A stretch of DNA of 24,880 bases from a virus. Positions 2,032 to 19,862 of the stretch are shown here, piece by piece. The notes under the pieces are model-generated. The model was not told where the DNA came from and ran no database searches. It saw only the letters and a program-made list of their open reading frames with translations. The position numbers and the translations under genes are program-made. The stretch covers positions 1-24,880 of the IMG/VR virus record IMGVR_UViG_3300044490_000218. One strand, written 5' to 3'. Every line of letters begins with the position of its first letter. The first letter of the stretch is position 1.

Positions 2032-2493
2032 TTAGATGATACTAAGAACTCCAATATCATCAGCAGAAATGTATCCATCAAGTAACTTAAGCCAAGCTCT
2101 CCATTGTTTGCTTTCCCAAAAACATCTTCCAGCCTGCAGGCTTGAAGCTAGCTCCTGAACCTGCCTAAGGAGATAGTGAAGAAATGATCCCTTAAAAGAT
2201 TTGACAATGGGAGCTATACTCAACCTAATTATCCTCAAATGCCCCTCCAGAATGTCCCAACTCCCCCAAACGACACCTAAAGCCTCTTCGTTGTTAGTAA
2301 CTAATATATTCCAATAAACTCCTGACTGATCCATCATTGAGCAGCATTTTAAATATTTCTCATAAGTGAAATCTCTTTCCCGAATCTGCTCAATCAATCC
2401 TCTAGGGATTAAAGAGAAAGGAACGTTTCTAAAGACTAAGAGCGAGTCAAACTCGTAGTTCTCTTCCTCTCGATGTACCATGGCTCGATCCAT
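2032..2493 (-). CDS. Possible GNAT-type acetyltransferase
   Basis: A 153-residue protein that reads like a small N-acetyltransferase: a strand-helix start, the strand pair YWNILVTNNEEALGVVWGSW, DILEGHLRIIRLSIAP (the strand before the acetyl-CoA loop) and KGSFLHYLLRQVQELAS in place of the Q/R-x-x-G-x-G/A motif with its helix. The canonical RxxGxG/A is degenerate, so acetyl-CoA binding is uncertain. The start at 2493 has GAGGAG 11 bases upstream. An ATG at 2481 is an alternative. It overlaps the stem protein by 58 bases, the longest overlap in the window. Small proteins of this type recur next to phage tail genes without known function. Confidence 0.55.
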   Translation of the reverse strand: MDRAMVHREEENYEFDSLLVFRNVPFSLIPRGLIEQIRERDFTYEKYLKCCSMMDQSGVYWNILVTNNEEALGVVWGSWDILEGHLRIIRLSIAPIVKSFKGSFLHYLLRQVQELASSLQAGRCFWESKQWRAWLKLLDGYISADDIGVLSII

Positions 2494-4487
2494 TTGACTT
2501 CTAACTCCTCATCTTCAGATTCAATTCGTACTCTTAGGGATTTAGCTGTTTTATTAAGCTCGTGAACGTATTCAACAAAGTTAGAGCTATTAGCAAAAGC
2601 CTTTGGATCAGACCAATTAGCTCCTTCGTTGAGGGAATAAGATGAAGTAAAATTACCTCCCTTAGCTTGAATCCTAACCTCTGTGATTCTATGAGCATGA
2701 CCCCATTTGAAGTCCTTAGTTTCATAGATCAGGGTTGGAATGTCAGCAACTTGAAACGATAGTCTCCGAAAGCCCATAGAATGAGTACTTCCCCAACAGT
2801 TAGCACATTTGAGAGCATAATATCTATAGGAGTTAGCGTTAGTCACATCAAAATATCTCGGCTCTGCTATGTTGCTATTAGCATGTCTAGATAGCATCCC
2901 TGCTGTACTTGATGGATCTAAGCTAGATGCAGTTGTAGGTAACTGAGTCCAGTTAGCATTATTAGCATACACCAAGTCAGCAAATGCGTTTGCATCATTA
3001 GATCCCCAAAAAGTAAATGCTTTGACACCTCTGTTGGTATTAGCTCCAGCATCATGAAAGTTTTCGTAATATATCCTAGTAACCTTCTTTGCTGAACCTA
3101 AATCAACATGAAACCTTTCATTACCATAATAGCCTACTTGAGAAAGCCAGCAATTCCCTGCAGCAGCTCCCACCAAGCTTTTAGAAGGATCGGTTGCAAG
3201 CCAAGGTCTGTAATTTGCTCCTTGATCATTATAAGAAGCTACATAATTCGCATCATGAGCAGGAGGAAACACCCATTTTTCAAGCTTCTTTGTAGTCCTA
3301 TCATCTTCGACAATACAACCATTACTATCACCAAACAGCGTTGTAGGAGCTCCTGAAGTAGCTTTATCCACCATCCAAAAACCCTCCTTGGTATTCCAAT
3401 TAGCCGTTTGCTCACTCCATAACTCAGTACTTGTAACTGAATAATAACCAAAAGCTGTCACTTCTCTCTTCGTAACCATCCAGCTTTGAGTTCCGAAGTT
3501 ATACTTGAAAATAGTATCAGGAACCGATCCCTGAGTAGGGACTGATAACCAATACTCCTCCAACTCTTCGATATAAGCAGCTCTCGCTCTTGATATCTTG
3601 TCAAAATTAACTATCTTGCTATCTGTCTCATAGAGTAAGGGATAAATCTGATCCGAGATCGGAGTCAGAGAATACCCATCATAAAGATAAACGCTATCAG
3701 TTCCATAAATGACAAGAACATCTCCTAAACCAATGACTTCAATATAAGACCCAACTCCATCAACTACTCTATAAGGAGAAAAGACAGTAGTTCCCCCAAC
3801 ATAAATCAACTCCCAGATTGATCTCTCTTTAATTACAAAGAGCCTATTCTTAAAGTAACAAAACCCAGTGACCCAATCAGTAGTATCAATCAACTCAACA
3901 AAGCCTGATCCTGCTCCCGAAAAATCTTCAGGGTCACCTAAAACACTCCATCTGCATCTAGTTGGGCACTTAGTTCCACTTTCAGTTGTCCATCCTAGGA
4001 TTAGTCTGTTTTGATAAAAAATGACAAACTTAGCTAGGATTGTAGTAAGACCTCCAAGGTCAGTAAAGTCACCTGCTCCTCCATCCCACTTCTGGATATC
4101 ATCAACACCGTTGGTAAGAATAAAGATATCATTGCCCGATGCATCTAACCCAGTAGCCGAGCTAAAGTTATCATCCTCAGTTCCTGTTAAAGAGGTTGTT
4201 ACCTTCGATAGAAAAGATCCATTACTTTGAAGATGATACACAGTAGTAGGAGTAACAAAAAGATCATGTACTGATCCCGATCTCATAGGAAAGGAATCAA
4301 TATGCATTACATACCCATCAAGGACCCCTTTACCAAAAGGTCTGGAACCTAACTCCTTCTTAAGAATTCCTTTATCAAACCTTACATTCTGAAGGTTAGG
4401 ACTCTCTTGATCAGCTAACAATAAAGGAGTTAGACTGACATTAATTCCTTTAGTAAGCTCAACAACGGAGTGAGGTTGTTTTCTCAT
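2436..4487 (-). CDS. Tail-stem/tubular protein (beta-propeller type) with discoidin-like insertion
   Basis: A 683-residue protein from ATG 4487, chosen because it overlaps the previous stop as ATGA and has GGAAGG upstream. Its N-terminal 400 residues have repeated blade-like segments (HDLFVTPTTVYHLQSNGSFL, NRLILGWTTE, GSYIEVIGLGDVLVIYGTDS, WLSVPTQGSVPDTIFKYNFG) as in the nozzle/tail tubular protein B class that forms the stem of short tails. About residues 407-580 form an F5/8 type C (discoidin)-like module (NCWLSQVGYYGNERFHVDLG, RGVKAFTFWGSND, FDVTNANSYRYYALKCANCW). The last 100 residues return to a beta domain (HRITEVRIQAKGGNFTSSYS). It overlaps the next ORF by 58 bases. Confidence 0.8.
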   Translation of the reverse strand: MRKQPHSVVELTKGINVSLTPLLLADQESPNLQNVRFDKGILKKELGSRPFGKGVLDGYVMHIDSFPMRSGSVHDLFVTPTTVYHLQSNGSFLSKVTTSLTGTEDDNFSSATGLDASGNDIFILTNGVDDIQKWDGGAGDFTDLGGLTTILAKFVIFYQNRLILGWTTESGTKCPTRCRWSVLGDPEDFSGAGSGFVELIDTTDWVTGFCYFKNRLFVIKERSIWELIYVGGTTVFSPYRVVDGVGSYIEVIGLGDVLVIYGTDSVYLYDGYSLTPISDQIYPLLYETDSKIVNFDKISRARAAYIEELEEYWLSVPTQGSVPDTIFKYNFGTQSWMVTKREVTAFGYYSVTSTELWSEQTANWNTKEGFWMVDKATSGAPTTLFGDSNGCIVEDDRTTKKLEKWVFPPAHDANYVASYNDQGANYRPWLATDPSKSLVGAAAGNCWLSQVGYYGNERFHVDLGSAKKVTRIYYENFHDAGANTNRGVKAFTFWGSNDANAFADLVYANNANWTQLPTTASSLDPSSTAGMLSRHANSNIAEPRYFDVTNANSYRYYALKCANCWGSTHSMGFRRLSFQVADIPTLIYETKDFKWGHAHRITEVRIQAKGGNFTSSYSLNEGANWSDPKAFANSSNFVEYVHELNKTAKSLRVRIESEDEELEVKWIEPWYIERKRTTSLTRS
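2748..3269 (-). other. Discoidin-like (F5/8 type C) module inside the tail-stem gene
   Basis: This encodes about 174 residues within the stem protein. The pattern is C-W-L-S-x(5)-G-N-E-R-F-x-V-D-L-G (the usual conserved WIQVDLGxxxxIxxI core becomes RFHVDLGSAKKVTRIYYE), then FTFWGSNDAN, then the closing YRYYALKC and MGFRRLSFQ. Such domains bind carbohydrates or glycolipids. Confidence 0.7.
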
Positions 4488-5398
4488 GATACCTTCCATA
4501 TTTCAATCTCGGCATAGATTTCCGGTTTGCCAAGGCCTGCAGGATGACCCATTCCTGAAGAAGCACCGACATTTGCCTTGTGACAGATTTCTAAAGTAGT
4601 TGTATTAGCTAAAGTAAACTCTCCGCTTATCATCGAATCGGTTTGGCTGCCATCTAATGTTTTTGCTGTACTGCCATCAAGTAAAGAATTCGATGGATCT
4701 GCTACATCCACCAAAGCCGTCTTATGGCTTATAACATCGTATGCTGGGCATCTAGCAGCAATTCTGTAAGTTCCAGCCGCTAAAGTAATCTGATTTGAGG
4801 CTAGAGTAACTATATTGCTAGGATCATACTCCTGATTCAGTTTCCTTGTTCTGCCCCATCTATTAGTATCATTTCCAGAAAAGAGATTAGGAGCTGCAGT
4901 ACCATTAGACTCTTGATGCCAGACTTTAGCATAAGGTATCCCGCTGCTAGGAACTGCCCACGTTCTATCACCTCTTAGAAAAGTATTAGCATTAGCAGTG
5001 CCTGTTCCTGATCTGTTAGAAGGAATTAGAACGTTAGCATCTAAATCAACATAGCCATTTGCTACTCCTTTATTGGCTATTTTCTCAAAATTAGCATTAG
5101 CATGAACATTTACATTACTATTATGATTAGCTATCTGATTAGCAATATCTCCTGGAACGCTATTAGCTAAGTTTGATAGATTAGATGAAACATTAGAGAT
5201 ACTATTGCTAAGAGTAGAATTAACATTAGATATATTACTGTCTAATGAATTAAGATCAGAAAAAGTGTCCTGCCCAATCTTTCTAATAGAGTCCAAAACT
5301 GAAGTATTATACTTCTTCACTCTCCCAGTATTACCAAGCTCACTTTCCTCAAGAGGAGTAGGAAGATCAGGAACTATTAGTGTCTTAAATTCAACCAT
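4484..5398 (-). CDS. Tail fibre with Asn/Ser-rich coiled coil and C-terminal jelly-roll
   Basis: A 304-residue protein, ATG at 5398 chosen because it overlaps the previous stop as TAATG. The upstream ATG would overlap that gene by 19 bases. Domains: a short attachment region (EFKTLIVPDLPTPLEESELG), a heptad-like coiled coil (SDLNSLDSNISNVNSTLSNS, then ISNVSSNLSNLAN, about 47-79), an Asn/Ala-rich linker, the fibre motif NTFLRGDRTWAVP (138-150), and a C-terminal 150-residue beta domain (AGTYRIAARCPAYDVISHKT) resembling C1q/TNF-type receptor-binding knobs. It is likely a trimeric receptor-binding fibre. The stop overlaps the next ATG as ATGA. Confidence 0.8.
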   Translation of the reverse strand: MVEFKTLIVPDLPTPLEESELGNTGRVKKYNTSVLDSIRKIGQDTFSDLNSLDSNISNVNSTLSNSISNVSSNLSNLANSVPGDIANQIANHNSNVNVHANANFEKIANKGVANGYVDLDANVLIPSNRSGTGTANANTFLRGDRTWAVPSSGIPYAKVWHQESNGTAAPNLFSGNDTNRWGRTRKLNQEYDPSNIVTLASNQITLAAGTYRIAARCPAYDVISHKTALVDVADPSNSLLDGSTAKTLDGSQTDSMISGEFTLANTTTLEICHKANVGASSGMGHPAGLGKPEIYAEIEIWKVS

Positions 5399-6084
5399 TA
5401 GGCAGTCCTTAGCCACATATAAACAACTATATAAGGCTGAACATTATTATGTGCATTTCCACTACCTGTACTGTTAGAAGCAGTAGCCTCAAACTCATAA
5501 TCACAGACCTGCTTAGCAATTCCCGAGCCTGTTCCATATAATGTTGGCTTATCATAATCATGGGTATGAGCAGGCAGCTCGTCGATAGCCAGGGCATGCG
5601 TCTTATTACCTCCTGTCTTATTTGCTGTATCAAAATCAGAATCATTAGCATCGATACCAACCAGCACCTTACCTGCACCATAAGCTGCCCAAGTCCCTAC
5701 TCCTAGCAAATTAGCTGGATCAGTAGAAACAGTCGAGATGAAGATAGATCCCACAGGCCAAGCAGCAGCAATGATATCCAAAGACAAATTCGCTTGACCT
5801 TTTCTAATCACCTGCCACCCTGCCTCGTATCTCTTCATCTCTCCTGTGTTAGAATCATGAGCAATAGCTCCATTTGCAGCATTAGCCAAGTTGGCTATAT
5901 CAGTAGCATTCCCAAGTCCCATGACAGTACACTCGCCAGGATTATGCCTTCCTGTAGTCATCGAGTGTTCAACTTCAAGTCTCTCCCTGGCAGCAACCTT
6001 CAACTCTCTTATCTTGTTCGCACCATACTTGATTTCATCACCATCAGCAGGACTTGCTTCGTAGTTAGCATCCCAAGTAGTCAT
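5398..6084 (-). CDS. Tail fibre/collar protein with T4 gp10-like C-terminal domain
   Basis: A 228-residue protein. The N-terminal part (TTWDANYEASPADGDEIKYG, then helical KIRELKVAARERLEVEH) is typical of short phage fibres with a coiled-coil-like start. The C-terminal half is the collar/gp10 type domain: AAWPVGSIFISTVSTDPANLLG (107-128), GVGTWAAYGAGKVLVG (128-143), the His motif HALAIDELPAHTHDYDKP (163-180) and the closing AHNNVQPYIVVYMWLRTA (211-228). In family members that His cluster binds metal and the domain forms trimers at the base of the fibre. It is probably a fibre-tip or baseplate protein. Confidence 0.82.
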   Translation of the reverse strand: MTTWDANYEASPADGDEIKYGANKIRELKVAARERLEVEHSMTTGRHNPGECTVMGLGNATDIANLANAANGAIAHDSNTGEMKRYEAGWQVIRKGQANLSLDIIAAAWPVGSIFISTVSTDPANLLGVGTWAAYGAGKVLVGIDANDSDFDTANKTGGNKTHALAIDELPAHTHDYDKPTLYGTGSGIAKQVCDYEFEATASNSTGSGNAHNNVQPYIVVYMWLRTA

Positions 6085-7516: not shown

Positions 7517-7848
7517 TTCCCCTTCACCTTCCCTACCGCCGCAATCGCAGAAGCCGCAGCAGTGTTCATCTGGGCCACCTTAGCCGGATCGGGACAATAC
7601 TGCTGCGTAAGCTGACCGGCTAAAGCCAGAGCCGCATCAGCCGCCGCAATGCCCATAGCCACGTAGACATCGGCCTTTTCCATTTCCTTAATCTGCGGCT
7701 TGAGGATGCCGCTGGTGGTATAATAAGCATCCTGCACAAGCCCCATAGTAATCTTGGCCTGGGCCGGGCCGTTAGGGGTGGAGCAGCAACCGCCTACCAG
7801 AGCCAGGGCCAGCAGGCCCGCCATCAAAAAATTTAGTTTCTTGAACAT
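7513..7848 (-). CDS. Phage-encoded lipoprotein (111 aa)
   Basis: A 111-residue predicted lipoprotein. The signal peptide MFKKLNFLMAGLLALALVGGC has a lysine-rich start, a hydrophobic core and a lipobox (LVGGC, with a second Cys directly after it). The mature part is alpha-helical and Ala-rich (KADVYVAMGIAAADAALALA, then AKVAQMNTAAASAIAAVGKV). The ribosome-binding site is AAGGA, 8 bases. It could be an outer-membrane spanin or a surface-exclusion lipoprotein, neither provable. Its G+C content is the highest seen in the window, unlike the structural genes. The stop overlaps the next ATG as ATGA. Confidence 0.75.
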   Translation of the reverse strand: MFKKLNFLMAGLLALALVGGCCSTPNGPAQAKITMGLVQDAYYTTSGILKPQIKEMEKADVYVAMGIAAADAALALAGQLTQQYCPDPAKVAQMNTAAASAIAAVGKVKGK

Positions 7849-7873
7849 TGGACTAATCCTTTCTTTTTTAATA

Positions 7874-7894
7874 GACTCTACCCAATGGGGAGTC
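7874..7894 (-). other. Small hairpin before the lipoprotein gene
   Basis: In the gene direction, GACTC CCC ATT GGG TA GAGTC forms a stem of five plus three pairs with a two-base bulge and three-base loop. It lies in the untranslated stretch 27 bases before the lipoprotein start and is followed by A-rich, not T-rich, sequence, so a terminator is unlikely. It may affect translation or RNA stability. Confidence 0.35.
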
Positions 7895-7904
7895 GGTTGT
7901 TACT

Positions 7905-8225
7905 TTAAGACCGCTGTGGCATATACAAATCTCGAAAGAGGTACACAATATCCTCCATAGTGGGGGTTGCCCGCAGTCGACAACAATGGGTGAAATCCAG
8001 ACTGGATTCGTCACAGCCTGGGCCTTTCACACCCCGCCCCCATAAATCGGACAGGGCACGGGAGCCGCGCCGATCATAGATGGCGTTCTTACGGAAACTG
8101 AACTGTAAGGTTCGCTTTGTCATAGGATGTTCTTCTTCGTTCAACCCGGTATTTCTATACCCCGCCCCGGTAGGCGGGGAATTACGGACAAGAAACCAAA
8201 GTAGTATGCCGATTACCGCACGCAC
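7905..8225 (-). CDS. Uncertain ORF, hypothetical (106 aa from GTG, 72 aa from ATG)
   Basis: A GC-rich ORF without a family. From GTG at 8225 it has a short hydrophobic start (AVIGILLWFLV) but no ribosome-binding site. From ATG at 8123 (MTKRTLQFSFRKNAIYDRRG) it has only a weak GAAGAAG upstream. The middle contains GRGVKGPGCDESSLDFTHCC and the end EDIVYLFRDLYMPQRS. It covers a stretch that would otherwise be empty, but neither start is convincing, and a strong hairpin at 8160-8179 interrupts it. It could be coding, a decayed gene, or a structured untranslated region. Confidence 0.38.
   Translation of the reverse strand: MRAVIGILLWFLVRNSPPTGAGYRNTGLNEEEHPMTKRTLQFSFRKNAIYDRRGSRALSDLWGRGVKGPGCDESSLDFTHCCRLRATPTMEDIVYLFRDLYMPQRS
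8160..8179. other. Strong GC-rich hairpin
   Basis: CCCCGCC, then six bases CCGGTA, then GGCGGGG: a perfect 7-base-pair stem of G-C pairs. In the direction of transcription it is not followed by a T run, so it is not a standard intrinsic terminator. It could be an RNA processing or mRNA-stability hairpin in the late transcript. Confidence 0.55.
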
Positions 8226-8253
8226 TGCAAATCGGATATAAATGATCTCCCAT
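8182..8253 (-). CDS. Possible 23-residue CxxC mini-ORF
   Basis: A very short ORF, ATG at 8253 preceded by GGGGGTGG at about 8 bases, TAA at 8182. It encodes a peptide with a CxxC pair and a third Cys (PICSACGNRH, then VSCP), reminiscent of a zinc ribbon half. It competes with the longer ORF that follows from GTG 8225 in another frame. Being so short, it may be chance. It is recorded because three other small Cys-rich products occur in this window. Confidence 0.3.
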   Translation of the reverse strand: MGDHLYPICSACGNRHTTLVSCP

Positions 8254-8270
8254 CAGCTTAACCACCCCCT

Positions 8271-8471
8271 TCAAAATCCATCGTGCCAGTAACTCCACGG
8301 CATCTCGATTATTCCCAAGTGAAACTGCCGCAAGACTTCCGGGTCTATAGTAGGCACCGGGTCTATACCGCCCCCAGAGATACGATAAAGCTCATAAAGC
8401 CGCTCAGTTTCCGCCTGGGCAAGACGGCGGACGCTCTTTTGATTAGGACGAAACTCCAGGACTTCCCCCAT
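8271..8471 (-). CDS. Hypothetical small protein (66 aa)
   Basis: A 66-residue ORF with ATG and an upstream AAGGGG site. It reads MGEVLEFRPNQKSVRRLAQA, then ETERLYELYRISGGG, then a Pro/Asp segment (IDPVPTIDPEVLRQFHLG) and an aromatic end (MPWSYWHDGF). I do not recognise it. It overlaps the holin-like gene by 29 bases in another frame, which is longer than the usual junctions here, so either this start or the ORF itself deserves checking. Confidence 0.55.
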   Translation of the reverse strand: MGEVLEFRPNQKSVRRLAQAETERLYELYRISGGGIDPVPTIDPEVLRQFHLGIIEMPWSYWHDGF

Positions 8472-9763: not shown

Positions 9764-11689
9764 TTAGTATTTAAATACTCGCACATACCATGTGCTATTG
9801 CCCAGGTCAACCGCTCCAGCAGTATTATTGGCTAATCCAATCGTAACGGTATCAGTATTATTCACATAAGCAAAAGGAGTCAATCCCTGAGTGTCTACCC
9901 CAGGCCCTACAATGACCATATCTCCTACGGCGGCTCCGGTCACTGTAGTAGTTGTTGTTGTGCTGCTCCCTACGGCAACATTACCTGGGTTCCAGGTTTT
10001 ATATCCCCGTAATGAAGCTGGCGTCTCATCGGCAAATGTTGGACTTGTAAAGGTAATAGCCGCGCCTGCTACGGTTGCATCAGCCACCGGGCTTACCGTG
10101 ATGGTACTGGCTACACAGTCCCGAGCCGTCACCTCTAAAGGGCCGGTTACTCCAGCAATATCAATAATCGCCCCAACGTATATATCGGTGGGGCTGGCTG
10201 AGATGGTAACAGTGCCGCTGCCTATATTAGTAGTTGCCGTTTTTGCGGTCGCCGGGAAGTAACTACCCTTGGTTATGCAAATCTTGCCAGGACTATCCCT
10301 CTGTTCATCATAACTACTATTAAGCCAACGATCACCAGCTTTGTATACCTGGTAGTTGGCATTAAAGGTAGCCTTGCGAGAGAATTTTACTTGGTTTACT
10401 CGCAACATATCCATAGCATATACGGCTGTGTTGTAACTAGGATCATATAGACCGCCATCCATTGTTGAGTATGGCAGTATTAACGTATTGCCTTCCGACG
10501 AAGCATGAAACCGAATAGATACGTCACTAGCTATTCCGTCAGCCAAAGAGAGGCCGTCAAAATAATTGTAGTCACCCCCGCAATAAATATTATTAGTAAT
10601 TAAACGTGCAGTATTCCATTCAAAAGACAAACCATAAAAACGATTTCCTTTAGTTTGACTTGCTGCACCACGCGGAATATAGATGCCATAAGACCCTGTG
10701 TAACTTGGAGCTACACCACTATCCTTACAATGAGGGCCAACCCAGATGTTTCGATTCATACGGCCTTCGCCACCAGCAAAATCAACGTGAATTTTGGCGT
10801 TTCGGCTATATCCTATATGAAATTCGTTATGGTAATTATTATTAAGATTAGTAGAATATAACTGAATATTTGATGTGAAGTTAGCTACCTCACGGAGATT
10901 GACGTAGCAAGCCCTAGTGCCGTCTAAGCGCAGACCAATAGAAGCACTAGACCAATCTTGGGTGAGTTGAGTTAATGATTTAATATTCACGTTGGCATAC
11001 TCGATATAACCACCAGCCGCTCCCGGCCCTAATGTTACAGCCGCGCCACTACTGCCGGTATATACCAGCGAGCCTTGTATGTCCATAACGGGTCGATCTA
11101 CTGTAATCGCAAAGCCAGTAGAAAATTTATATGTGGAAGCAGCAGGTGGAATATACAACTCGCCACCAGCAACTAGGGCCGCAGATGCCTTCTGAAAAGG
11201 GACAGCATTATCTGTAGAACCGTCACCTATGGCTCCAAACCATACAGCATTCACTATTTTTAAACCAGCGACCGCCCCCGTCCCCGTACAGCTAAACACC
11301 TGGTACAGCCCCGCATCGATCGGACCGTTGATGGTGAAGGTAGTTCCTGTAGCTACGGTCACGGTAGACCCTTTTGGGGCTATTAGTCTGAGCGTGGTGG
11401 GGATAGTGAGGCCCCCACCTGCCTGGGAAGTCTGGGCAAGAGATAAGTCACCAGCGGTTGCCCCGATCAGTGTAAGCGTTCCTGATAGGGAAGTTGAGGC
11501 TGTAATATTCACCGGCCCATAAAAGACATTACCTACCTGATCAACTGAACGTATTAGTGGCGAGCCATCTGAGGCGTACTGGTTATAGAGATCAGGAATA
11601 GGAGGAGCTATAGGTCCTACTCTCTGCCCGTGGACATTGAGAGGAAGCAAGATAGTTAAGATTAAAACAAGTAGCCAGCGAGTAATCAT
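9764..11689 (-). CDS. Tailspike-like right-handed beta-helix protein with signal peptide
   Basis: A 641-residue protein. The ATG at 11689 was chosen over one 13 codons upstream because a perfect AGGAGG stands 6 bases before it and the result begins with a signal peptide (MITRWLLVLILTILLPLNVHGQ, basic then about 15 hydrophobic residues). Residues 40-150 look like a fibre-attachment domain. The pectate-lyase-3 signature follows as WFGAIGDGSTDNAVPFQKAS (150-169), where GDGxTDD is usual, then a long beta-helix. The end resembles other phage fibre C-termini (GDMVIVGPGVD, then TVTIGLANNTAGAVDLGNST). It probably binds or degrades a surface polysaccharide. Its composition is more GC-rich than the flanks. 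The signal peptide is unusual for a phage spike, so it could instead be an exported protein. Confidence 0.8.
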   Translation of the reverse strand: MITRWLLVLILTILLPLNVHGQRVGPIAPPIPDLYNQYASDGSPLIRSVDQVGNVFYGPVNITASTSLSGTLTLIGATAGDLSLAQTSQAGGGLTIPTTLRLIAPKGSTVTVATGTTFTINGPIDAGLYQVFSCTGTGAVAGLKIVNAVWFGAIGDGSTDNAVPFQKASAALVAGGELYIPPAASTYKFSTGFAITVDRPVMDIQGSLVYTGSSGAAVTLGPGAAGGYIEYANVNIKSLTQLTQDWSSASIGLRLDGTRACYVNLREVANFTSNIQLYSTNLNNNYHNEFHIGYSRNAKIHVDFAGGEGRMNRNIWVGPHCKDSGVAPSYTGSYGIYIPRGAASQTKGNRFYGLSFEWNTARLITNNIYCGGDYNYFDGLSLADGIASDVSIRFHASSEGNTLILPYSTMDGGLYDPSYNTAVYAMDMLRVNQVKFSRKATFNANYQVYKAGDRWLNSSYDEQRDSPGKICITKGSYFPATAKTATTNIGSGTVTISASPTDIYVGAIIDIAGVTGPLEVTARDCVASTITVSPVADATVAGAAITFTSPTFADETPASLRGYKTWNPGNVAVGSSTTTTTTVTGAAVGDMVIVGPGVDTQGLTPFAYVNNTDTVTIGLANNTAGAVDLGNSTWYVRVFKY

Positions 11690-11699
11690 CTCAAACCTC

Positions 11700-11996
11700 C
11701 TATTTAAACAAAGCGATGCTAACGACACATGCTACAGGAGAGATGAAGCTAATCGTTGTAGCACCTCTTATATCAAGGCAGCTTGGATTTAAAAAGCTAC
11801 CCGATCCATCAGCCACCTCAGTACTCGGAACCGCTGCAGCAGCATTGACTCTGATATAGAAGTTACTAGTTCCCGAAAGTACTGCATACTTATACCCACT
11901 AGGAACTGTATAAGTCTCAGCAACACCAGCGGCAAGAACCATGTTATCTATATAAGTCGGTATAGGCATCGTAAGTGCTGTGCTAATTGTGGGCAT
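11700..11996 (-). CDS. Small beta-rich structural protein (98 aa)
   Basis: A 98-residue protein with strong ribosome-binding site (GGAGG, 8 bases). It is beta-rich and hydrophobic: DNMVLAAGVAETYTVPSGYKYAVL, NFYIRVNAAAAVPS and FISPVACVVSIALFK. It resembles a small all-beta protein commonly found in phage tail/fibre regions, where the motif is xYxDNxVLAAGVAETxTVP. It may be a small virion or fibre-associated domain. Role unproven. The next gene starts 11 bases after its stop. Confidence 0.72.
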   Translation of the reverse strand: MPTISTALTMPIPTYIDNMVLAAGVAETYTVPSGYKYAVLSGTSNFYIRVNAAAAVPSTEVADGSGSFLNPSCLDIRGATTISFISPVACVVSIALFK

Positions 11997-11997
11997 C

Positions 11998-12165
11998 TTA
12001 ACTACCTCCTTTAATCTTAAATGCTATAGCAAGAGCTCTCTTTCTTGCCTCTTCCTTGGTTAGCTTACCACTGGAGCCTATACTACCCTTTCTCTTAAAG
12101 GTTCTCATAAGCTCGGAAAGATTTCTTCCAAAGGCCTCTTTTGTTTTACTTTGCTCCAAAGGCAT
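11998..12165 (-). CDS. Small basic phage protein (55 aa)
   Basis: A 55-residue basic protein. The ATG at 12165 (MPLEQSKTKEAFGRNLSELM) was chosen because GAGGAG lies at normal distance. It overlaps the end of the radical SAM gene by 20 bases. The layout MPL-x(n)-S-N/L-S-x-L-M-R-x(n)-K-x-A-x-A-I-A-x-x-x resembles the short phage proteins (often annotated only as hypothetical) that have a self-association helix and an A-I-A helix near the C-terminus. The end reads KEEARKRALAIAFKIKGGS. The function is unknown. Confidence 0.7.
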   Translation of the reverse strand: MPLEQSKTKEAFGRNLSELMRTFKRKGSIGSSGKLTKEEARKRALAIAFKIKGGS

Positions 12166-13078
12166 CTTTATACTCCTCAAAAATAGTCTTATCTAGAGAG
12201 CTATAGGCCTCAGATAATACAGGTGTCAGAAATCTTTGTTTATTAAGATGTAGATATATTCCATACCTACTAGCTATCCTAGCTCGATAGGTAGGATTTT
12301 TATAAGCTGCCATCTGTTGAGGTTGATGGATCAGCTTGAGATCACTTATCTGGTAAAGACCTTTTTTAATCTTTATTGATTTATCCTTAAGTCGATCGTA
12401 GTTCTTAGGAGAGATATCATCAATCTTTTCTGTGCTAATTCTTCTCTCCAAAGGTAATGCTGCCCCACACTTCGGGCAGAATTCCTCTCTCTGCTCTTTG
12501 AAATCCTTCGAGGTTCTTTTCCACCAACCTTTCTCAACTGGCCAGCCATAGCTTCCGTTAAAAAGAATGGACATTGAAGCCGCTATCTCACAGAAGAAGG
12601 CTCCTTTTGGATTGATTGCTGCGGACCAAGCCTCCTGAATCCAGCAATGCTCAGTAGCGAGAAACAAATCAGTAGAGTCAGTAAATATCTCCTCTGACGC
12701 AACAAGGATGGGACAGTGATAAATATCATTTCTGGAATGATCATTGATAAAGATATTACCGAAAGTATCGCAGATAATATGCCTTAGATATTCATACCCT
12801 TTAGGTAGACAAGTCCAAAGACCTAATTGCTCCTTAGGAATCTTATCCTGAAGGTATTTACAAAATTGCTCGAACTTAGGATGTAGAAGAGGCTCACCTC
12901 CCATTATACCTGTCATTTTAGGATAATCAACCATTGACTCAACAGCTTGCTCGAAGGTATTGACGTCCATGTGATAAGGACGAGCATGCCCAACAAAACG
13001 AGTGCAGTTAGAGCATTCATTAATGCAGGCATTTGTTATTTCAATTTGGATAGTATCCATATCCAGCAAAGGTCTCAT
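12146..13078 (-). CDS. Radical SAM enzyme
   Basis: A 310-residue protein with the radical SAM iron-sulfur triad C-x3-C-x2-C at C18, C22 and C25 (NACINECSNC) and the following GGEP motif at 60-63 (MGGEPLLHP), which binds SAM. The N-terminal two thirds read as the usual partial TIM barrel (IQIEITNA, MTGIMGGEPLL, LGLWTC). Extra cysteines at 122, 145 and 163 and the pair CPKC (201-204) could hold an auxiliary iron-sulfur cluster or zinc as in SPASM/twitch enzymes (inference). The C-terminal 90 residues are basic and unrecognised. The start has GGAGG 8 bases upstream. The reaction is unknown. It closes the GT-methyltransferase-radical SAM cassette. Confidence 0.85.
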   Translation of the reverse strand: MRPLLDMDTIQIEITNACINECSNCTRFVGHARPYHMDVNTFEQAVESMVDYPKMTGIMGGEPLLHPKFEQFCKYLQDKIPKEQLGLWTCLPKGYEYLRHIICDTFGNIFINDHSRNDIYHCPILVASEEIFTDSTDLFLATEHCWIQEAWSAAINPKGAFFCEIAASMSILFNGSYGWPVEKGWWKRTSKDFKEQREEFCPKCGAALPLERRISTEKIDDISPKNYDRLKDKSIKIKKGLYQISDLKLIHQPQQMAAYKNPTYRARIASRYGIYLHLNKQRFLTPVLSEAYSSLDKTIFEEYKDAFGAK

Positions 13079-13081
13079 CGC

Positions 13082-13597
13082 CTAAACCTCCCTTATCCAT
13101 ATCCTATCATGGATTTGAAAAGTATCATCGCCAAAATAATGATCAAGAGCAAGCCTAATAGCTGGATAGTCGAAGTCGTGTCCACAGATCATCTTCTTAG
13201 CTTTAGGCGCCCAAGCTCCAAGATCATCGAGAAAATGATCAAACTCGTGTGATGCATCAAGAAAGACCATATCAATAGATCTGTCTGAGAAAACCTCAAC
13301 GGCTTTTAGACTATCCATCTCAAAAAGGACCCATCTTTTCAGATCCTTCATATTCTTCAAGAAGTCCTCTCTCACATCAAATCCAGTCTTGATGATATCT
13401 TGATGCTCAGATGATCCTTTAAAGTGATCCACAGCATACACCCAACCAGGACAGCCTGAGCAGAGTGCGTAAGTGCTTCTTCCTCTCCAGCAGCCTACTT
13501 CGACAATAGACTGCATCTCTTTGGCTGTTTTATAAAGCCAATTAAGCTCTGAATCGGACATCCAACCTGGGATATGAGACCCTGGACATTCGATCAT
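13082..13597 (-). CDS. Class I SAM-dependent methyltransferase
   Basis: A 171-residue methyltransferase (Methyltransf_24-like). Motif I is IVEVGCWRGRSTYAL (31-45), the acidic residue after strand 2 is D57 (YAVDHFKG), and the post-motif region has DMVFLDASHEFDHFLDDL (109-126). It ends with MICGHDFDYPAIRLALDHYFG, the G-x-D-F-x-x-P-x-V-x-x-A pattern common in small methyltransferases that act on sugars or glycan precursors. I chose the ATG at 13597, which overlaps the glycosyltransferase stop as ATGA. A GTG at 13609 would add four residues. The substrate is unknown, but adjacency to a glycosyltransferase suggests methylation of the same glycan (inference). Confidence 0.82.
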   Translation of the reverse strand: MIECPGSHIPGWMSDSELNWLYKTAKEMQSIVEVGCWRGRSTYALCSGCPGWVYAVDHFKGSSEHQDIIKTGFDVREDFLKNMKDLKRWVLFEMDSLKAVEVFSDRSIDMVFLDASHEFDHFLDDLGAWAPKAKKMICGHDFDYPAIRLALDHYFGDDTFQIHDRIWIREV

Positions 13598-14292
13598 AGT
13601 AGGTTCCACTCTCTCAAGACCTTCTTCATCTCGATTACTTTAGCTTCAATAGGAATCGTATAATGATGCCAGAAGAAAGGCCCATGGAGCTTGAGATTCT
13701 CGGATAATTGCCGAACCGAGACAAATTTAAGCCCGTATTTGGCAATATTCCTACTGCAGGTATAATCATCAATAAGATGCTCAGGGTCAATAACCCCGCT
13801 TACTCTCTCACCTACAGTAGGTTGGATATTAGCAACTGCCTCTTCAGGAGTTAGATCATCTAAAGGTTTCCAAAGCTCAATGCAGAGATCCGAGCCAATA
13901 GTGAACCAATTCCCTGAGCCAATATGTCTCCCATCACGGCGAAAGAATCTATCATATCTCCAACGAATCGGAGCGAAATCTTGGCCATGATGGGAGACTG
14001 TATCTCTTGGCAGAACATGAGTGAAGTCAGGAGCGTCTGGATGTACTAAAGCATCTGAGTCAATATAGATGTTCCAGTCAGGGGACAGCTCCTGAGCAAG
14101 TTGGTAAATTTGAAACTTCTCATAAGTCACCGGCCACTTAGGGAACTTTCTTTCATTGATGATATGAAAGTCAGCTCCTATCTTGCGAGCGTAAGCCTTT
14201 AGTAAGGGATACGTTATCGCCGTAATCTCTGGAGCATAGTCATTTACATTAAGAGTGTAAATAACTTTCTTTTCGCCTTTTTCCCAAGCCAT
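13594..14292 (-). CDS. Glycosyltransferase with DxD motif
   Basis: A 232-residue putative nucleotide-sugar glycosyltransferase of the GT-A type. The N-terminus KKVIYTLNVNDYAPEITAIT is followed by a helix (YPLLKAYARKIGADFHIIN) as in GT8-like and related phage glycosyltransferases. The metal-binding DxD is at IYIDSDALVHP (D78-S-D80), flanked by SPDWN. Later motifs are HIGSGNWFTIG (123-133), a possible acceptor region DPEHLIDDYTCSRNI (169-183) and a His pair (FFWHH, 206-210) that could hold the second metal ligand. The start has AAGGAG 6 bases upstream, and the stop overlaps the next start as ATGA. The sugar and acceptor are not determinable. First of a three-gene enzyme cassette. Confidence 0.82.
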   Translation of the reverse strand: MAWEKGEKKVIYTLNVNDYAPEITAITYPLLKAYARKIGADFHIINERKFPKWPVTYEKFQIYQLAQELSPDWNIYIDSDALVHPDAPDFTHVLPRDTVSHHGQDFAPIRWRYDRFFRRDGRHIGSGNWFTIGSDLCIELWKPLDDLTPEEAVANIQPTVGERVSGVIDPEHLIDDYTCSRNIAKYGLKFVSVRQLSENLKLHGPFFWHHYTIPIEAKVIEMKKVLREWNLL

Positions 14293-14303
14293 CTTATTCT
14301 CCT

Positions 14304-14903
14304 TTATTTATAGCCATAAGCTATAAAATTAACCTCGCCTATTGCAACATCATTTGCCACTTGACTACCAGCTGCAGCGTCGACAGCACTTCTAAAGCCA
14401 GAAGGGATAGTGCAGTTACCAGCTGCATGGTTAGAAGGTTGAGTTACTGAATGAGCGCTTAAAGAGTGATTACTTGGCTGAGTTACGCTATGGGTAACTG
14501 TATCCAAAGCTAAGTTATTCCCTGCAGTTGGATGGTTAGCTACCGCACAGTTGGCATGAGCTAGATCATCGTGGTTAGCAACAGCGGTATTAGCATGAGC
14601 CATCACCGGAGTTGTAATTGCATTAGCTCCAGACCCAGCCACTGCTTGAGCTGCTCTAGGATAGAAGCATTTAAAAGACTTGCTCGTTCTATCCCATCTA
14701 ACAATGTAGCCGTTAGTAGAAACACCCTCACAGACTACATTTTGAACAGTCTTAAAGTTCCTTGTGATATTGCTCACTTCCACAAGGGTTTGGTTATAGT
14801 TGGTAATATTAGCCTTGCCTGAGAGAGATAGCATAGGACCTCTCAGGCCTACCCTCCTCGCTGTCGGGAGATCCAGCGTAACAGTACAAGCATAAGCTGC
14901 CAT
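14304..14903 (-). CDS. Structural protein with a periodic histidine-rich region
   Basis: A 199-residue protein with a strong ribosome-binding site (AAGGAGGT) and the start MAAYACTVTLDLPTARRVGL, typical of small phage virion proteins adjoining decoration genes. The first 85 residues look like a beta domain. Residues 101-160 carry eight histidines at spacings of 8, 5, 8, 14, 8, 5 and 8 residues, with the exact nine-residue repeat HSVTQPSNH at 138-146 and 151-159. The C-terminus is IGEVNFIAYGYK. Regular His spacing in phage fibres can coordinate metal along a trimer axis (known from several fibre proteins), so a trimeric head fibre or knob is a reasonable guess. The family is not identified. Confidence 0.72.
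   Translation of the reverse strand: MAAYACTVTLDLPTARRVGLRGPMLSLSGKANITNYNQTLVEVSNITRNFKTVQNVVCEGVSTNGYIVRWDRTSKSFKCFYPRAAQAVAGSGANAITTPVMAHANTAVANHDDLAHANCAVANHPTAGNNLALDTVTHSVTQPSNHSLSAHSVTQPSNHAAGNCTIPSGFRSAVDAAAGSQVANDVAIGEVNFIAYGYK
14424..14603 (-). repeat. Histidine-periodic region (13-residue unit)
   Basis: Residues 101-160 of the structural protein. His residues at 103, 111, 116, 124, 138, 146, 151 and 159 form two blocks of 8-5-8 spacing. The second block contains the exact repeat HSVTQPSNH, 13 residues apart. The first block (AHANTAVANHDDLAHANCAVANH) is an older copy of the same pattern. Confidence 0.85.
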
Positions 14904-14914
14904 GTTACACCTCC

Positions 14915-15682
14915 TTAAGCAAGATTTAAGTCAATGAGGGCATAGTGGCCATTTGCATTGACAGTTAGAACTTTACCCACTCTTTGCTCCAGTAGACCAG
15001 GGCAGTCAGCATTGCTGTTTGCATTTAAGCTATTAGCAGGACTGACTGCTCCACCCACTGCAGCAGAAGGAGCGACATGGTCTCCAGCGACAAGAGTGCC
15101 ATTAGCTAAGACTGCAGCAGGACCTTTCTTCTGGAACCAAGCATAGTAGTTGGCAGTTACAGGAATGACAGACACACCAACTAATGCTTGGGATACAGGG
15201 GTAGGAGTGATGATAACTCCCTTGGACGGATGTCTGCAGAGAGTTACGAAAGCCGTAGCGAGATTAGCTCTCAGATAATCATAGAGCTGAATTACTAAGT
15301 TAGCATTTGCATTCGCCGCAGGATGGCTTTTAATCTTGTAAGCATAACCCTTGCCAGAGGTAGTAGAGTTGCTAACATGTAGAAAACCTTCAGCATACAT
15401 GTTCGCTGTAGCTGCAAGATCGCTGAGAGTAACCGTTACTGAGTTCTCATCAGCATTTGCATTAGCCACAGCAATGTTGCCGTGATTAGCAACATCATGA
15501 AGGGCACCTTGGCAGAGAATACCCACGGCAATGTTAGCAGCGCCAGCTTGGCAGTAGATGAATTCTCTACCATCAGAAAGCCGACGGATAGCACCAAGCC
15601 TTTGTTTTTGGGTAGAGCTTTCGTCAAAAAGACTTTGAACAAAGCTCTTAGGATCAACTTCGACGAAAGGATACTTTCCCAT
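14915..15682 (-). CDS. Capsid decoration/stabilisation-type structural protein
   Basis: A 255-residue beta-rich protein after the capsid gene. I chose the ATG at 15682 (MGKYPFVEVDPKSF) because GGGAG lies 6 bases before it. The ATG at 15688 has the same sequence almost touching it. Its C-terminal half (GDHVAPSAAVGGAVSPA, then EQRVGKVLTVNANGHYALIDLNL) matches the pattern of capsid-associated beta proteins with a GAV-P motif and a final V-G-x-V-L strand. Asn/Ala runs are conspicuous (IAVANANADENS, HPAANANANL). It is likely a head surface or stabilising protein made in large amounts, with the exact role inferred. Confidence 0.75.
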   Translation of the reverse strand: MGKYPFVEVDPKSFVQSLFDESSTQKQRLGAIRRLSDGREFIYCQAGAANIAVGILCQGALHDVANHGNIAVANANADENSVTVTLSDLAATANMYAEGFLHVSNSTTSGKGYAYKIKSHPAANANANLVIQLYDYLRANLATAFVTLCRHPSKGVIITPTPVSQALVGVSVIPVTANYYAWFQKKGPAAVLANGTLVAGDHVAPSAAVGGAVSPANSLNANSNADCPGLLEQRVGKVLTVNANGHYALIDLNLA

Positions 15683-15737
15683 TTCCATCTCCCTTTTGGT
15701 TAGTGGAGTTCCTTAAGTCAATTCAATGACAGAAGGA

Positions 15738-16706
15738 TTAAGCTGCAATACCAGTTAGAACTTTCATGGCAATAGGCCGCCGAGTTGTAGCATTGCAAGC
15801 ACAAACAATCTGAGCGACCTTATCATTAGGCTGATCAGGAATTTGCTTCCAATCAGTCATTTCCATGAAGTAAGCCGAGTCATAAACAAATTTGTAATAG
15901 GCAGTATTCACAAAGTACATATTGCCTGAAGGAGCTGAAGGACACCACATAATAGGCTTGCCTTTGAACTGGATCGTATCAAAGCCAGCATCAGCCATCA
16001 TGGTGTTGGAGAGAATCTTCATCTCCAAGCATACGTCTTCATAAAGCTCGAAGACAGCCTGAGTAGTCACCAAGGCAATATCCTTGAGTTCTGCCCTAGC
16101 GTACTTGATAATATCATTCATACAAGTACGCATATCCGGCACGAGGTAAACAGCTGCAGCACCAGTGGAGGTCTTCTGCTGATTTCTCCACCAGTCATAA
16201 GTTGCACGGTTAAGGCCATGAACAGTACCAGTTGTTGGAGTGCTGGAGATCAAATTTTGAAGTCCATTAGGCTCATTATCACCAGAGCCATCAGCGAACA
16301 TCACTCTTTCGAGCTCTTCCCATAGCTCAAGCTCGGCAGCGTCGTACTTAGTCGTTACCATGTTGATAGCTTGAGCCTTGCCTCGGTTTTGCTGCTCGTC
16401 AGTAAACCAACGAACGATAGAGACAGCAACATACCTCCACTGTTCGTAGGCAAGGGTGATCAGCTCGCTGTCCTGGATAGGAACAGTGCTTCCTTTCGTG
16501 ATCCAGCGGACAGTTTCATTCCGCCCGTATTTGAGAGGAATTTCAATCTGCCTATGACCGCTGATAGCCTCTGCATGACCGTTTTTCTTGAGCCAGAAGA
16601 TGAACGGAGTTTTTAAGAAAGCCTGCTCCGTAGCTTCTTTCTTTCTATAAGCCCAAGTCGAAGTGAAAAGAGTATCAAGAGTTTGAGTCCAAGTCGGGGG
16701 AGCCAT
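15738..16706 (-). CDS. Major capsid protein
   Basis: A 322-residue protein directly after the scaffold gene with a very strong ribosome-binding site (AAGGAGGT), as expected for the most abundant virion protein. The N-terminal region (FLKTPFIFWLKKNG) and the strand/loop stretch GHRQIEIPLKYGRNETVRWI resemble the start of HK97-fold capsid proteins found by metagenomics. The middle carries a long helix (ELELWEELERVMFADGSG) followed by a P-domain-like part. The end (YFMEMTDWKQIPDQPNDKVAQIVCACNATTRRPIAMKVLTG) matches the C-terminal beta region often seen, in which a receptor strand ends RRP. No cleavage site can be read with certainty. The MCP call is based on order and general resemblance. Confidence 0.87.
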   Translation of the reverse strand: MAPPTWTQTLDTLFTSTWAYRKKEATEQAFLKTPFIFWLKKNGHAEAISGHRQIEIPLKYGRNETVRWITKGSTVPIQDSELITLAYEQWRYVAVSIVRWFTDEQQNRGKAQAINMVTTKYDAAELELWEELERVMFADGSGDNEPNGLQNLISSTPTTGTVHGLNRATYDWWRNQQKTSTGAAAVYLVPDMRTCMNDIIKYARAELKDIALVTTQAVFELYEDVCLEMKILSNTMMADAGFDTIQFKGKPIMWCPSAPSGNMYFVNTAYYKFVYDSAYFMEMTDWKQIPDQPNDKVAQIVCACNATTRRPIAMKVLTGIAA

Positions 16707-18111: not shown

Positions 18112-19862
18112 CTCCCTGCCCTCATCTTATCCAAAGGAATAGGCATCTTAGGCCCGCTAGGTTGACCTGCACCTTCCATTCCCTGCCCTCCAGGTCTCAT
18201 AGGATGAGGCTGTCTCATTAAACCTTCCATCTGAGCTCCAAGAGGAGGACGAGTGATTAATCGATCCGCGATTGGGTCGACGGTAGCATAATTGCCTAAA
18301 AGCATCATTCTTAAGGTCATTTGATCAATCATTTGATCACCATTGAAGAGACTAAACATCTCTTTTGCCATTTGATACTTAAGCATTCTATTCACAGGAA
18401 TGCCGGAGTCGGGATCGATGCTGATTAAATACTCTCCTTTAAGCTGATCACCTGTATACTCAATCCAAAAAGGCTCGCCTTTAGGCGTTACTATTTGAAT
18501 TACCCTCTCCTTACTCCAAAAGGAGAAGATATACTGATTCCACTTCTTAATAATATTAACAAGAAGATCCGAGACAATATCTCTCCTTTCATCAACCCTC
18601 TCCTCGAAGCCTTGAGCAACTATCCCAGCCTCTCTCGCTGAGGTATTATGCTTAGGAGAGAATTGACCAGCCTGGTTCGGTCCATAACCCAAACCCTCAA
18701 CCATATCCTGAAGGACTGACTGTGCCTCTCTATAAAGATCAGGAGGAACATGAGCTGCAAAAGTTTGGATAATATTACCAAGAGGAGTATCTCCATCAGT
18801 TCCCACTGCTACTCCTATCTGGCCAGAGAGAAGCTTTTGAAGCTCGTCTTCTGAAACAGATCCCTTTCTATAGAGAAATCTAAGTAAAGCAATAGCTCTA
18901 TGTTGAGCTGCTTGAGTTCTAATATCATTAAGCTCCTCTTGCTGAGGGATTAGATTGACTACATCAGGAATAGGCCAAAAGATCTCTGGATCATCATTGA
19001 AGATTAGGAATTCATAAGGAAGACTATCAAAAGACTGAAGAACATCTTGCTCCCTGAGAAGGCATTCGTTTTCGCAAAAGATAATAATCTCTCCTGTTTT
19101 AAAATCCCTAACTTCAAAGAGCTCGGCATAAGGGATGTCTTTCTCCCAGCTATCTCTCCCCTGAGGTGCTACATCCTTCTGCATCATATCTTTATTAGGA
19201 ACTCTCGTCCCTTTGAGCTCTTTTGTGTTTTTATACTTCTGATCATTCTTCACATCATCAAGAGGTCTGACAATATAATGACAAATCCAAGGAACAGAAG
19301 CAGGCTCAGAAGCTCCCCAAGGTACGATTACATGCTCAGGAAGGATTCTAGCAGCCCAAGGCATTCCTGGCTTGATATGCTCTCTATATTCAATCCTTGA
19401 TCCATCCTTCTGATGAGCTTGAGTCACTGTAGCTCCATCATCGGTGACTGATTGCTGAGGAAGGTAGCCGAATTCACTATCATAGCCTAATTTGATAGGA
19501 GAGATTCCGCAAAGGAAGGCGTCGACAACTGCTTTCTTAATCGTTCCCTTGAGGAAAGCTTCTTTAATAAGCATATTATCTATAGCTTCCACCACTTGAG
19601 CGTGCCAGACAAGCTCAGGGTTGGTGGCTGTTGCGCAGACTTTAGGATTACGAGAATAAACACGAGGAACCATCATCCGGCCATAGCTGAAGATCTTATT
19701 CACAGGGACGACATTGTTGTCGTATTTTCCTCTATAGTAATCTCTCCACAAAGGCCAACTACTTGAAGTGGAGTATCGTTTACGATACTTAATCCCACCT
19801 TCAATCTGATGAAGCCACTCTTGGATCCAATCCTCTGGAGTTTTTTGCTTAGATTTAGCCAT
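18108..19862 (-). CDS. Portal protein
   Basis: Twelve-subunit ring at the capsid vertex through which DNA enters and leaves and to which the terminase and neck bind. It has 584 residues, a typical portal size. Portal-like features are the N-terminal helical region (WPLWRDYYRGKYDNNVVPVNKIFSYGRMMVPRVYSRNP), a mixed clip/wing region (PYAELFEVRDFKTGEIIIF, YEFLIFNDDPEIFWPIPDVV), the helix LIPQQEELNDIRTQAAQHRA and the stem-type segment KKWNQYIFSFWSKER. The C-terminus is Pro/Gly/Met-rich (QPHPMRPGGQGMEGAGQ). The start overlaps the previous stop by one base and the stop overlaps the next start by four (ATGA). Position after TerL and before scaffold and capsid fits. Assignment rests on context and general composition, as no single portal motif is diagnostic. 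Confidence 0.88.
   Translation of the reverse strand: MAKSKQKTPEDWIQEWLHQIEGGIKYRKRYSTSSSWPLWRDYYRGKYDNNVVPVNKIFSYGRMMVPRVYSRNPKVCATATNPELVWHAQVVEAIDNMLIKEAFLKGTIKKAVVDAFLCGISPIKLGYDSEFGYLPQQSVTDDGATVTQAHQKDGSRIEYREHIKPGMPWAARILPEHVIVPWGASEPASVPWICHYIVRPLDDVKNDQKYKNTKELKGTRVPNKDMMQKDVAPQGRDSWEKDIPYAELFEVRDFKTGEIIIFCENECLLREQDVLQSFDSLPYEFLIFNDDPEIFWPIPDVVNLIPQQEELNDIRTQAAQHRAIALLRFLYRKGSVSEDELQKLLSGQIGVAVGTDGDTPLGNIIQTFAAHVPPDLYREAQSVLQDMVEGLGYGPNQAGQFSPKHNTSAREAGIVAQGFEERVDERRDIVSDLLVNIIKKWNQYIFSFWSKERVIQIVTPKGEPFWIEYTGDQLKGEYLISIDPDSGIPVNRMLKYQMAKEMFSLFNGDQMIDQMTLRMMLLGNYATVDPIADRLITRPPLGAQMEGLMRQPHPMRPGGQGMEGAGQPSGPKMPIPLDKMRAGR

Follow-up and report, generated by a model that had tools for sequence, protein, structure and literature searches.

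A phage cassette of glycosyltransferase, methyltransferase and radical SAM genes as a probable virion self-glycosylation system associated with Ala-Asn-rich virion proteins

Introduction

What a glycosyltransferase (GT), a methyltransferase (MT) and a radical SAM enzyme (rSAM) are doing among the structural genes of a tailed phage is the question raised by the viral contig IMGVR_UViG_3300044490_000218, of which positions 1 to 24,880 were analysed (24,880 bases, referred to here as the window). The original prediction for this locus held that the three genes form a tightly coupled cassette within the virion operon and that the enzymes share a substrate, for instance a virion-protein glycan, a host surface sugar or a peptide. 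Few systems of phage virion glycosylation are known, and as a rule the modified sites cannot be predicted. The reading that we consider probable is that the cassette is a virion self-glycosylation system, which would place a tailored, probably pentose-derived sugar on the asparagine of Ala-Asn (not followed by Pro) in head-decoration and tail-fibre proteins.

Gene Organization

By gene content the window is one tailed-phage virion module, encoded entirely on the minus strand. The module runs through small and large terminase, portal, a scaffold-like protein, the major capsid protein (MCP, phrog_9953, 15738..16706), the head-decoration-like virion protein deco1 (14915..15688), a His-rich protein (14304..14903), GT (13594..14292, 232 aa), MT (13082..13597, 171 aa) and rSAM (12146..13078, 310 aa), and continues with two small genes (11998-12180 and 11700-11996), a tailspike gene, lysis-type genes and tail-fibre genes. 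The three enzyme genes were thus found inside the virion operon where they had been predicted, and their tight coupling was borne out, with the GT stop and the MT ATG overlapping as ATGA and rSAM starting 3 nt past MT. An in-frame GTG at 13609 is an alternative MT start and would yield a protein of 175 aa. The His-rich protein and the tailspike flank the cassette as described, but the two small genes separate rSAM from the tailspike.

Two further genes of the module deserve mention. Between terminase and portal lies an ATP-grasp protein resembling phosphoribosylamine-glycine ligase (21498-22781, minus strand), which matches GARS_A at 1e-14 and purD at 7e-30, the latter far under the purD cut-off, and which occupies the same position in contigs L003 and L008. 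The portal is preceded by a 549-aa protein (19862-21511, minus strand) with a DUF6932/nucleotidyltransferase-like segment at residues 244-348. In L008, a LAGLIDADG-like, homing-endonuclease-looking open reading frame (7739-8338) directly follows the capsid gene and seemingly truncates it.

Predicted Enzymes

The structural model of GT (pLDDT 85) has a GT-A fold, for which the best solved match is A064R (5e-7), a capsid-glycan transferase of chlorovirus PBCV-1, and viral GT34-type proteins are also matched, and both Asp residues of its D78xD80 motif are invariant across seven homologues. As modelled, GT is a GT34-like GT-A glycosyltransferase with a DxD metal site. No sequence similarity to A064R was detectable, the profile search reached no Pfam GT family, and a search of 50,697 phage records returned no relative except one unannotated marine single-cell record at 33% identity. 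MT, a class I SAM methyltransferase, matches Methyltransf_24 (E 8e-13). The TM-scores of the cassette models to solved folds are only about 0.45-0.55.

In rSAM, the cysteines of the C18-x3-C22-x2-C25 motif are invariant across 42 homologues, as is G60 of the GGEP motif, whose G61, E62 and P63 are at least 90% conserved in the same set. Four further cysteines, C145, C163, C201 and C204, are likewise invariant and, judging from the alignment, would supply the four ligands required by one auxiliary 4Fe-4S cluster. The DxD, SAM-binding and C-x3-C-x2-C/GGEP motifs, previously described as intact, were confirmed as such by homologue alignments for GT and rSAM and by the Methyltransf_24 match for MT. 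No curated family covers the window rSAM. Its model (pLDDT 94.5) is of the twitch type, and the best named folds are SpeY (5e-8) and BtrN (3e-4), with TM-scores of about 0.37-0.49 despite the best PDB E-values; peptide-modifying folds rank lower (SkfB 5e-3, EpeE 4.5e-2). SpeY acts in spectinomycin biosynthesis and is entered in the PDB as a twitch radical SAM dehydrogenase. BtrN performs the two-electron oxidation of an aminocyclitol alcohol and holds an auxiliary cluster with four Cys ligands (PMC9012708). The modelled folds of GT and rSAM suggest sugar chemistry throughout.

This ranking of folds bears on the reading in which asparagine or the peptide backbone is the direct target of rSAM and MT, in a RiPP- or proteusin-like manner (epimerisation, N-methylation or cross-linking), while GT adds a separate decoration. 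SPASM/twitch rSAM enzymes are often peptide-directed, EpeE, a RiPP epimerase, is matched weakly in fold, and Ala-Asn-rich, beta-structured proteins recall Asn-rich proteusin cores. We nevertheless regard direct peptide modification as unlikely, with small-molecule alcohol dehydrogenases being the closest in fold, well ahead of the peptide enzymes. A short precursor of the RiPP type conserved beside rSAM was not found; the small open reading frame at 11998-12180 recurs in only five contigs, those seen belonging to the capsid lineage of the window, and is absent from other cassettes.

Conservation of the Cassette

When 2.9 million viral contigs were scanned using only the rSAM family, 33 viral loci were recovered, all 33 of which also encode GT, located upstream of rSAM and usually adjacent to it, in several unrelated capsid lineages. 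Overall, GT is present in 44 of 46 rSAM contigs (window included), both exceptions being bacterial chromosomes; the two genes share a strand in all 44, every GT copy lies upstream in 43, and overlaps of 4 to 22 bases are often seen. With GT and rSAM found together in 44 viral contigs, their neighbourhood is not a matter of chance. Contig L185 was considered as a case of rSAM without GT and rejected, as it encodes a different radical SAM protein (11102-12196, 21 bits), which adjoins an acetyltransferase-like gene in a virion module without GT.

The gene orders observed comprise GT-rSAM, GT-MT-rSAM, MT-GT-rSAM-SDR and GT-SDR-rSAM. Ten non-redundant contigs (L004, L005, L044 and L048 among them) carry a GT-MT fusion and one, L018, an MT-rSAM fusion. 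Varied orders in which the partners are kept, together with these fusions, indicate selection for togetherness, as a shared pathway predicts. The search for the gene order in other phages, as originally proposed, thus brought to light repeated co-occurrence in changing orders, fusions of two kinds and a UDP-sugar enzyme that recurs. In L005, a second transferase of the GT8 family (11300-12100) directly follows the GT-MT fusion, which suggests longer glycans in this lineage.

The UDP-sugar enzyme is a UDP-glucuronate-decarboxylase/UDP-xylose-synthase-like (UXS-like) SDR, which recurs in 21 contigs, about half of the GT+rSAM cassettes, and matches human UXS1 at E 2e-43 compared to 1e-19 for the next family. 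This partner points to a sugar, which argues against peptide chemistry, and makes a pentose such as xylose the probable donor sugar. The window itself carries no UXS-like gene, so that a pentose donor would need to be supplied by the host.

A GT, an MT and a sugar-nucleotide enzyme would also suit a cassette that alters a host surface glycan (LPS O-chain), thereby blocking superinfection or changing receptors, and that resides in the structural operon only for its late timing. GTs of pelagimyophage host-recognition regions are usually read in this way (PMC7029224), and bacterial rSAM homologues lie in glycosylation islands together with GT41-TPR, MT and nucleotidyltransferase-like genes. However, the genes noticed beside the cassette included none of a membrane-anchored or flippase-like type, and modification of the host surface predicts neither the Ala-Asn enrichment described below, nor its absence in cassette-less relatives, nor the exclusion of Pro after Ala-Asn, and we consider it improbable.

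Among the bacterial homologues, the Trichlorobacter/Desulfuromonadaceae relatives of rSAM in L115 and L116 (around 10001) sit in chromosomal glycosylation islands with TPR-GT41 proteins, and chromosomal genes of this type are a possible cellular source of the phage gene. Isolate phages searched with the rSAM sequence gave no match, and one weak cyanophage match was obtained with a divergent homologue; by these sequence searches, the cassette is almost absent from isolate phages.

Candidate Acceptor Sites

Of the 390 dipeptides that could be tested in the window proteins, Ala-Asn (AN) shows the strongest enrichment, with 68 occurrences observed against a shuffle mean of 34.9 (sd 5.3) and a maximum of 53 in 2000 shuffles. 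The excess is located in deco1, the proposed main acceptor (14 AN vs 3.3 expected), and in three further proposed acceptors on the minus strand, namely a tail/tail-fibre protein (5398..6084, 9 vs 2.4), a tail fibre protein (4484..5416, 12 vs 3.2) and the virion structural protein phrog_3287 (2436..4499, 12 vs 2.4, all in the C-terminal half). For the His-rich protein directly upstream of GT, a possible acceptor, the excess is suggestive (7 vs 3.0 expected, shuffle p 0.015). No AN excess was found in the window terminase, portal, capsid, scaffold-like protein, tailspike or cassette enzymes; the MCP has 0 AN vs 1.5 expected and would not be an acceptor in the lineage of the window. Enrichment in virion proteins supports the predicted shared substrate in the form of a virion-protein glycan, and favours virion proteins over a host-surface sugar or a free peptide.

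To compare phages with and without the cassette, relatives were fetched with major capsid proteins as bait, which are unrelated to the AN signal, and AN ratios were derived from coding-strand gene calls, genes being called mechanically from open reading frames. AN over expectation was 1.61 in 47 GT+rSAM contigs vs 1.00 in 119 capsid-matched cassette-less contigs (MWU p 2e-13), contigs being treated as independent although relatives are not, with repetition across unrelated capsid lineages as the safeguard. The ratio was 1.35 in 12 GT-MT-fusion contigs and 1.11 in 44 contigs with a related GT and no rSAM in the fetched locus, a class in which L043 and L188 are counted and have contigs cut off near GT; the GT family alone does not predict AN excess. 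Contigs having a protein at Poisson p below 1e-3 numbered 18 of 47 with GT and rSAM vs 0 of 119 without the cassette.

The same contrast is seen within single protein families. In complete deco1 homologues, 10-15 AN are present with the cassette (nine of nine with GT and an intact or truncated rSAM, including L043, whose contig ends inside its rSAM) and 0-5 without it, where the cassette-less contigs L122 and L128 cover the expected cassette place and L118 and L123 end before it. The deco1 of L014 has 13 AN vs 3.5 expected, a partial homologue at the contig end of L125 has 8, and L094, in which GT is present, has 2 AN in a deco match of only 24 bits. In aligned deco1 columns, AN with the cassette is replaced by AS, AT, AA or AD in cassette-less homologues. 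A search of 31 control contigs over their whole length, most of them fragments and the search having no positive control of its own, found no GT. For the unrelated phrog_283-type capsid lineage, the contig AN ratio is 1.73 with GT vs 0.99 without (p 2e-8), and a 592-aa protein beside the cassette contains 20-32 AN with GT and 3-6 without (complete genes). A third capsid lineage shows a consistent AN pattern on few data. As far as sequence statistics tell, whether virion proteins have the candidate acceptor sites depends on whether the enzymes are encoded.

The properties of the motif were examined in 73 high-AN proteins, in which AN is 3.06 times expectation, a size inflated by selection as the proteins were chosen for high AN, while the reverse dipeptide NA is at 1.07. 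Pro follows Ala-Asn 6 times vs 40.5 expected and other asparagines 56 times vs 56.1 expected, and among the other residues tested at the position preceding Asn, none is much enriched. By these sequence properties, the A-N signal behaves like an enzyme recognition site. A cause at the DNA level (codon bias, repeats or template-repeat-like AAY codons) was rejected, with 680 AN in frame vs 12 and 15 in the other frames and all eight Ala-Asn codon pairs in use (both in the first 59 high-AN proteins). Low-complexity ANAN runs were rejected likewise, as there are only 35 ANAN, half of the sites are isolated and NA is unenriched. Thr is found at +2 of A-N 157 times vs 80 and is favoured at -4 and -2 too, so that an extended A-N-x-T sequon was discarded in favour of strand context; the preference may simply reflect exposed beta-strands.

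Such a context is what would be expected if the A-N excess were a structural feature of asparagine ladders or beta-helices, unmodified and linked to the cassette only by shared phages, and some cassette phages indeed show no AN excess (the GT+rSAM contigs L018, L035, L037 and L096). Yet decoration homologues of the same fold lack AN when GT is absent, unrelated families (deco1, the 592-aa protein, tail fibres and one HK97-like MCP) gain AN with GT, the excess holds strictly for one direction of the dipeptide and exclusion of Pro is confined to the position following A-N, all of which makes a purely structural origin unlikely in our view. Under virion self-glycosylation, the exceptions with GT but little AN excess may have other acceptors or a GT of differing specificity. 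A point against surface acceptors comes from L024 (4240-5058), where what is probably the head scaffolding protein (phrog_8865), not expected at the surface of the virion, has 10 Ala-Asn vs 2.8 expected.

With regard to the enzyme that reads the motif, in L048 an AN-rich protein lies beside the GT-MT fusion and the contig, 71.5 kb long, encodes no rSAM of this kind, which renders rSAM less likely as the A-N reader and argues further against the action of rSAM on the peptide. MT is missing from the fetched locus of several AN-rich contigs. What the AN-rich contigs have in common is GT, which would be the reader. AN-rich virion proteins were also noted in L125 (9779-10259), L179 (11300-12076) and L257 (2229-3377), whose contigs end before or near the cassette place; self-glycosylation predicts a GT in these phages.

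Proposed Mechanism

In the proposed mechanism, the GT-A glycosyltransferase would, late in infection, move a sugar, probably a pentose such as xylose, from a UDP-sugar to the asparagine of A-N where Pro does not follow, the acceptors being the head-decoration and tail-fibre proteins made beside it. The methyltransferase would O-methylate this sugar, and the twitch rSAM would abstract hydrogen from a sugar carbon and convert a hydroxyl into a ketone, the kind of reaction that BtrN and SpeY carry out on aminocyclitols.

Relation to Known Systems and Significance

Virus-encoded glycosylation of capsid proteins with GT and MT is known from PBCV-1, where domain 1 of A064R can also use xylose (PMC9614988). 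As proposed for the cassette, the PBCV-1 enzymes (A064R, A061L and others) are encoded by the virus; they act in the cytoplasm on capsid-protein asparagines in atypical sequons, and A064R joins GT domains to a methyltransferase, similar to the GT-MT fusions of cassette phages. In contrast to PBCV-1 with its algal hosts, the cassette phages infect bacteria and possess an rSAM, and the PBCV-1 sequons NTXT/NIPG differ from A-N(not P), which occurs at many sites per protein. Mycobacteriophages (cluster O and others) use phage GTs and an O-methyltransferase to modify capsid and tail-tube proteins (PMC11600133, citing Freeman 2023), and so resemble the cassette in phage-encoded virion glycosylation; no rSAM is described for them there, and the targets proposed here are decoration and tail-fibre proteins instead. 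BtrN and SpeY are the nearest folds to the window rSAM and share with it a CX3CX2C motif near the N-terminus, which is accompanied in rSAM by four further invariant Cys, but the window rSAM stands apart from them with TM-scores of about 0.4-0.5 and lies outside curated families.

The claim that the combination has no characterised equivalent therefore holds for its rSAM-containing form, whereas self-glycosylation by GT and O-methyltransferase is known (PMC9614988, PMC11600133). Neither the cassette nor an A-N sequon was found described in the open-licence literature; viral capsid glycosylation as such is known, and what looks new is the tailoring by rSAM and the A-N code. More tentatively, and at slightly less than an even chance in our estimation, the A-N code together with an rSAM-made keto-sugar on a phage GT glycan would amount to an undescribed code of protein glycosylation, readable from genomes, that gives a chemically reactive or unrecognisable coat and for which dense arrays of sites have evolved in several unrelated lineages.

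Since the motif, the enzymes and the dependence of the one on the other can all be seen in sequence, direct tests become feasible for the acceptor rule, for the sugar chemistry and for what rSAM contributes to coat modification. Should A-N be a genuine sequon recognised by a single soluble enzyme, this enzyme would be a useful tool for producing glycoproteins in bacteria. The same outcome would suggest that concealing or stabilising the surface with unusual sugars is widespread among uncultured phages.
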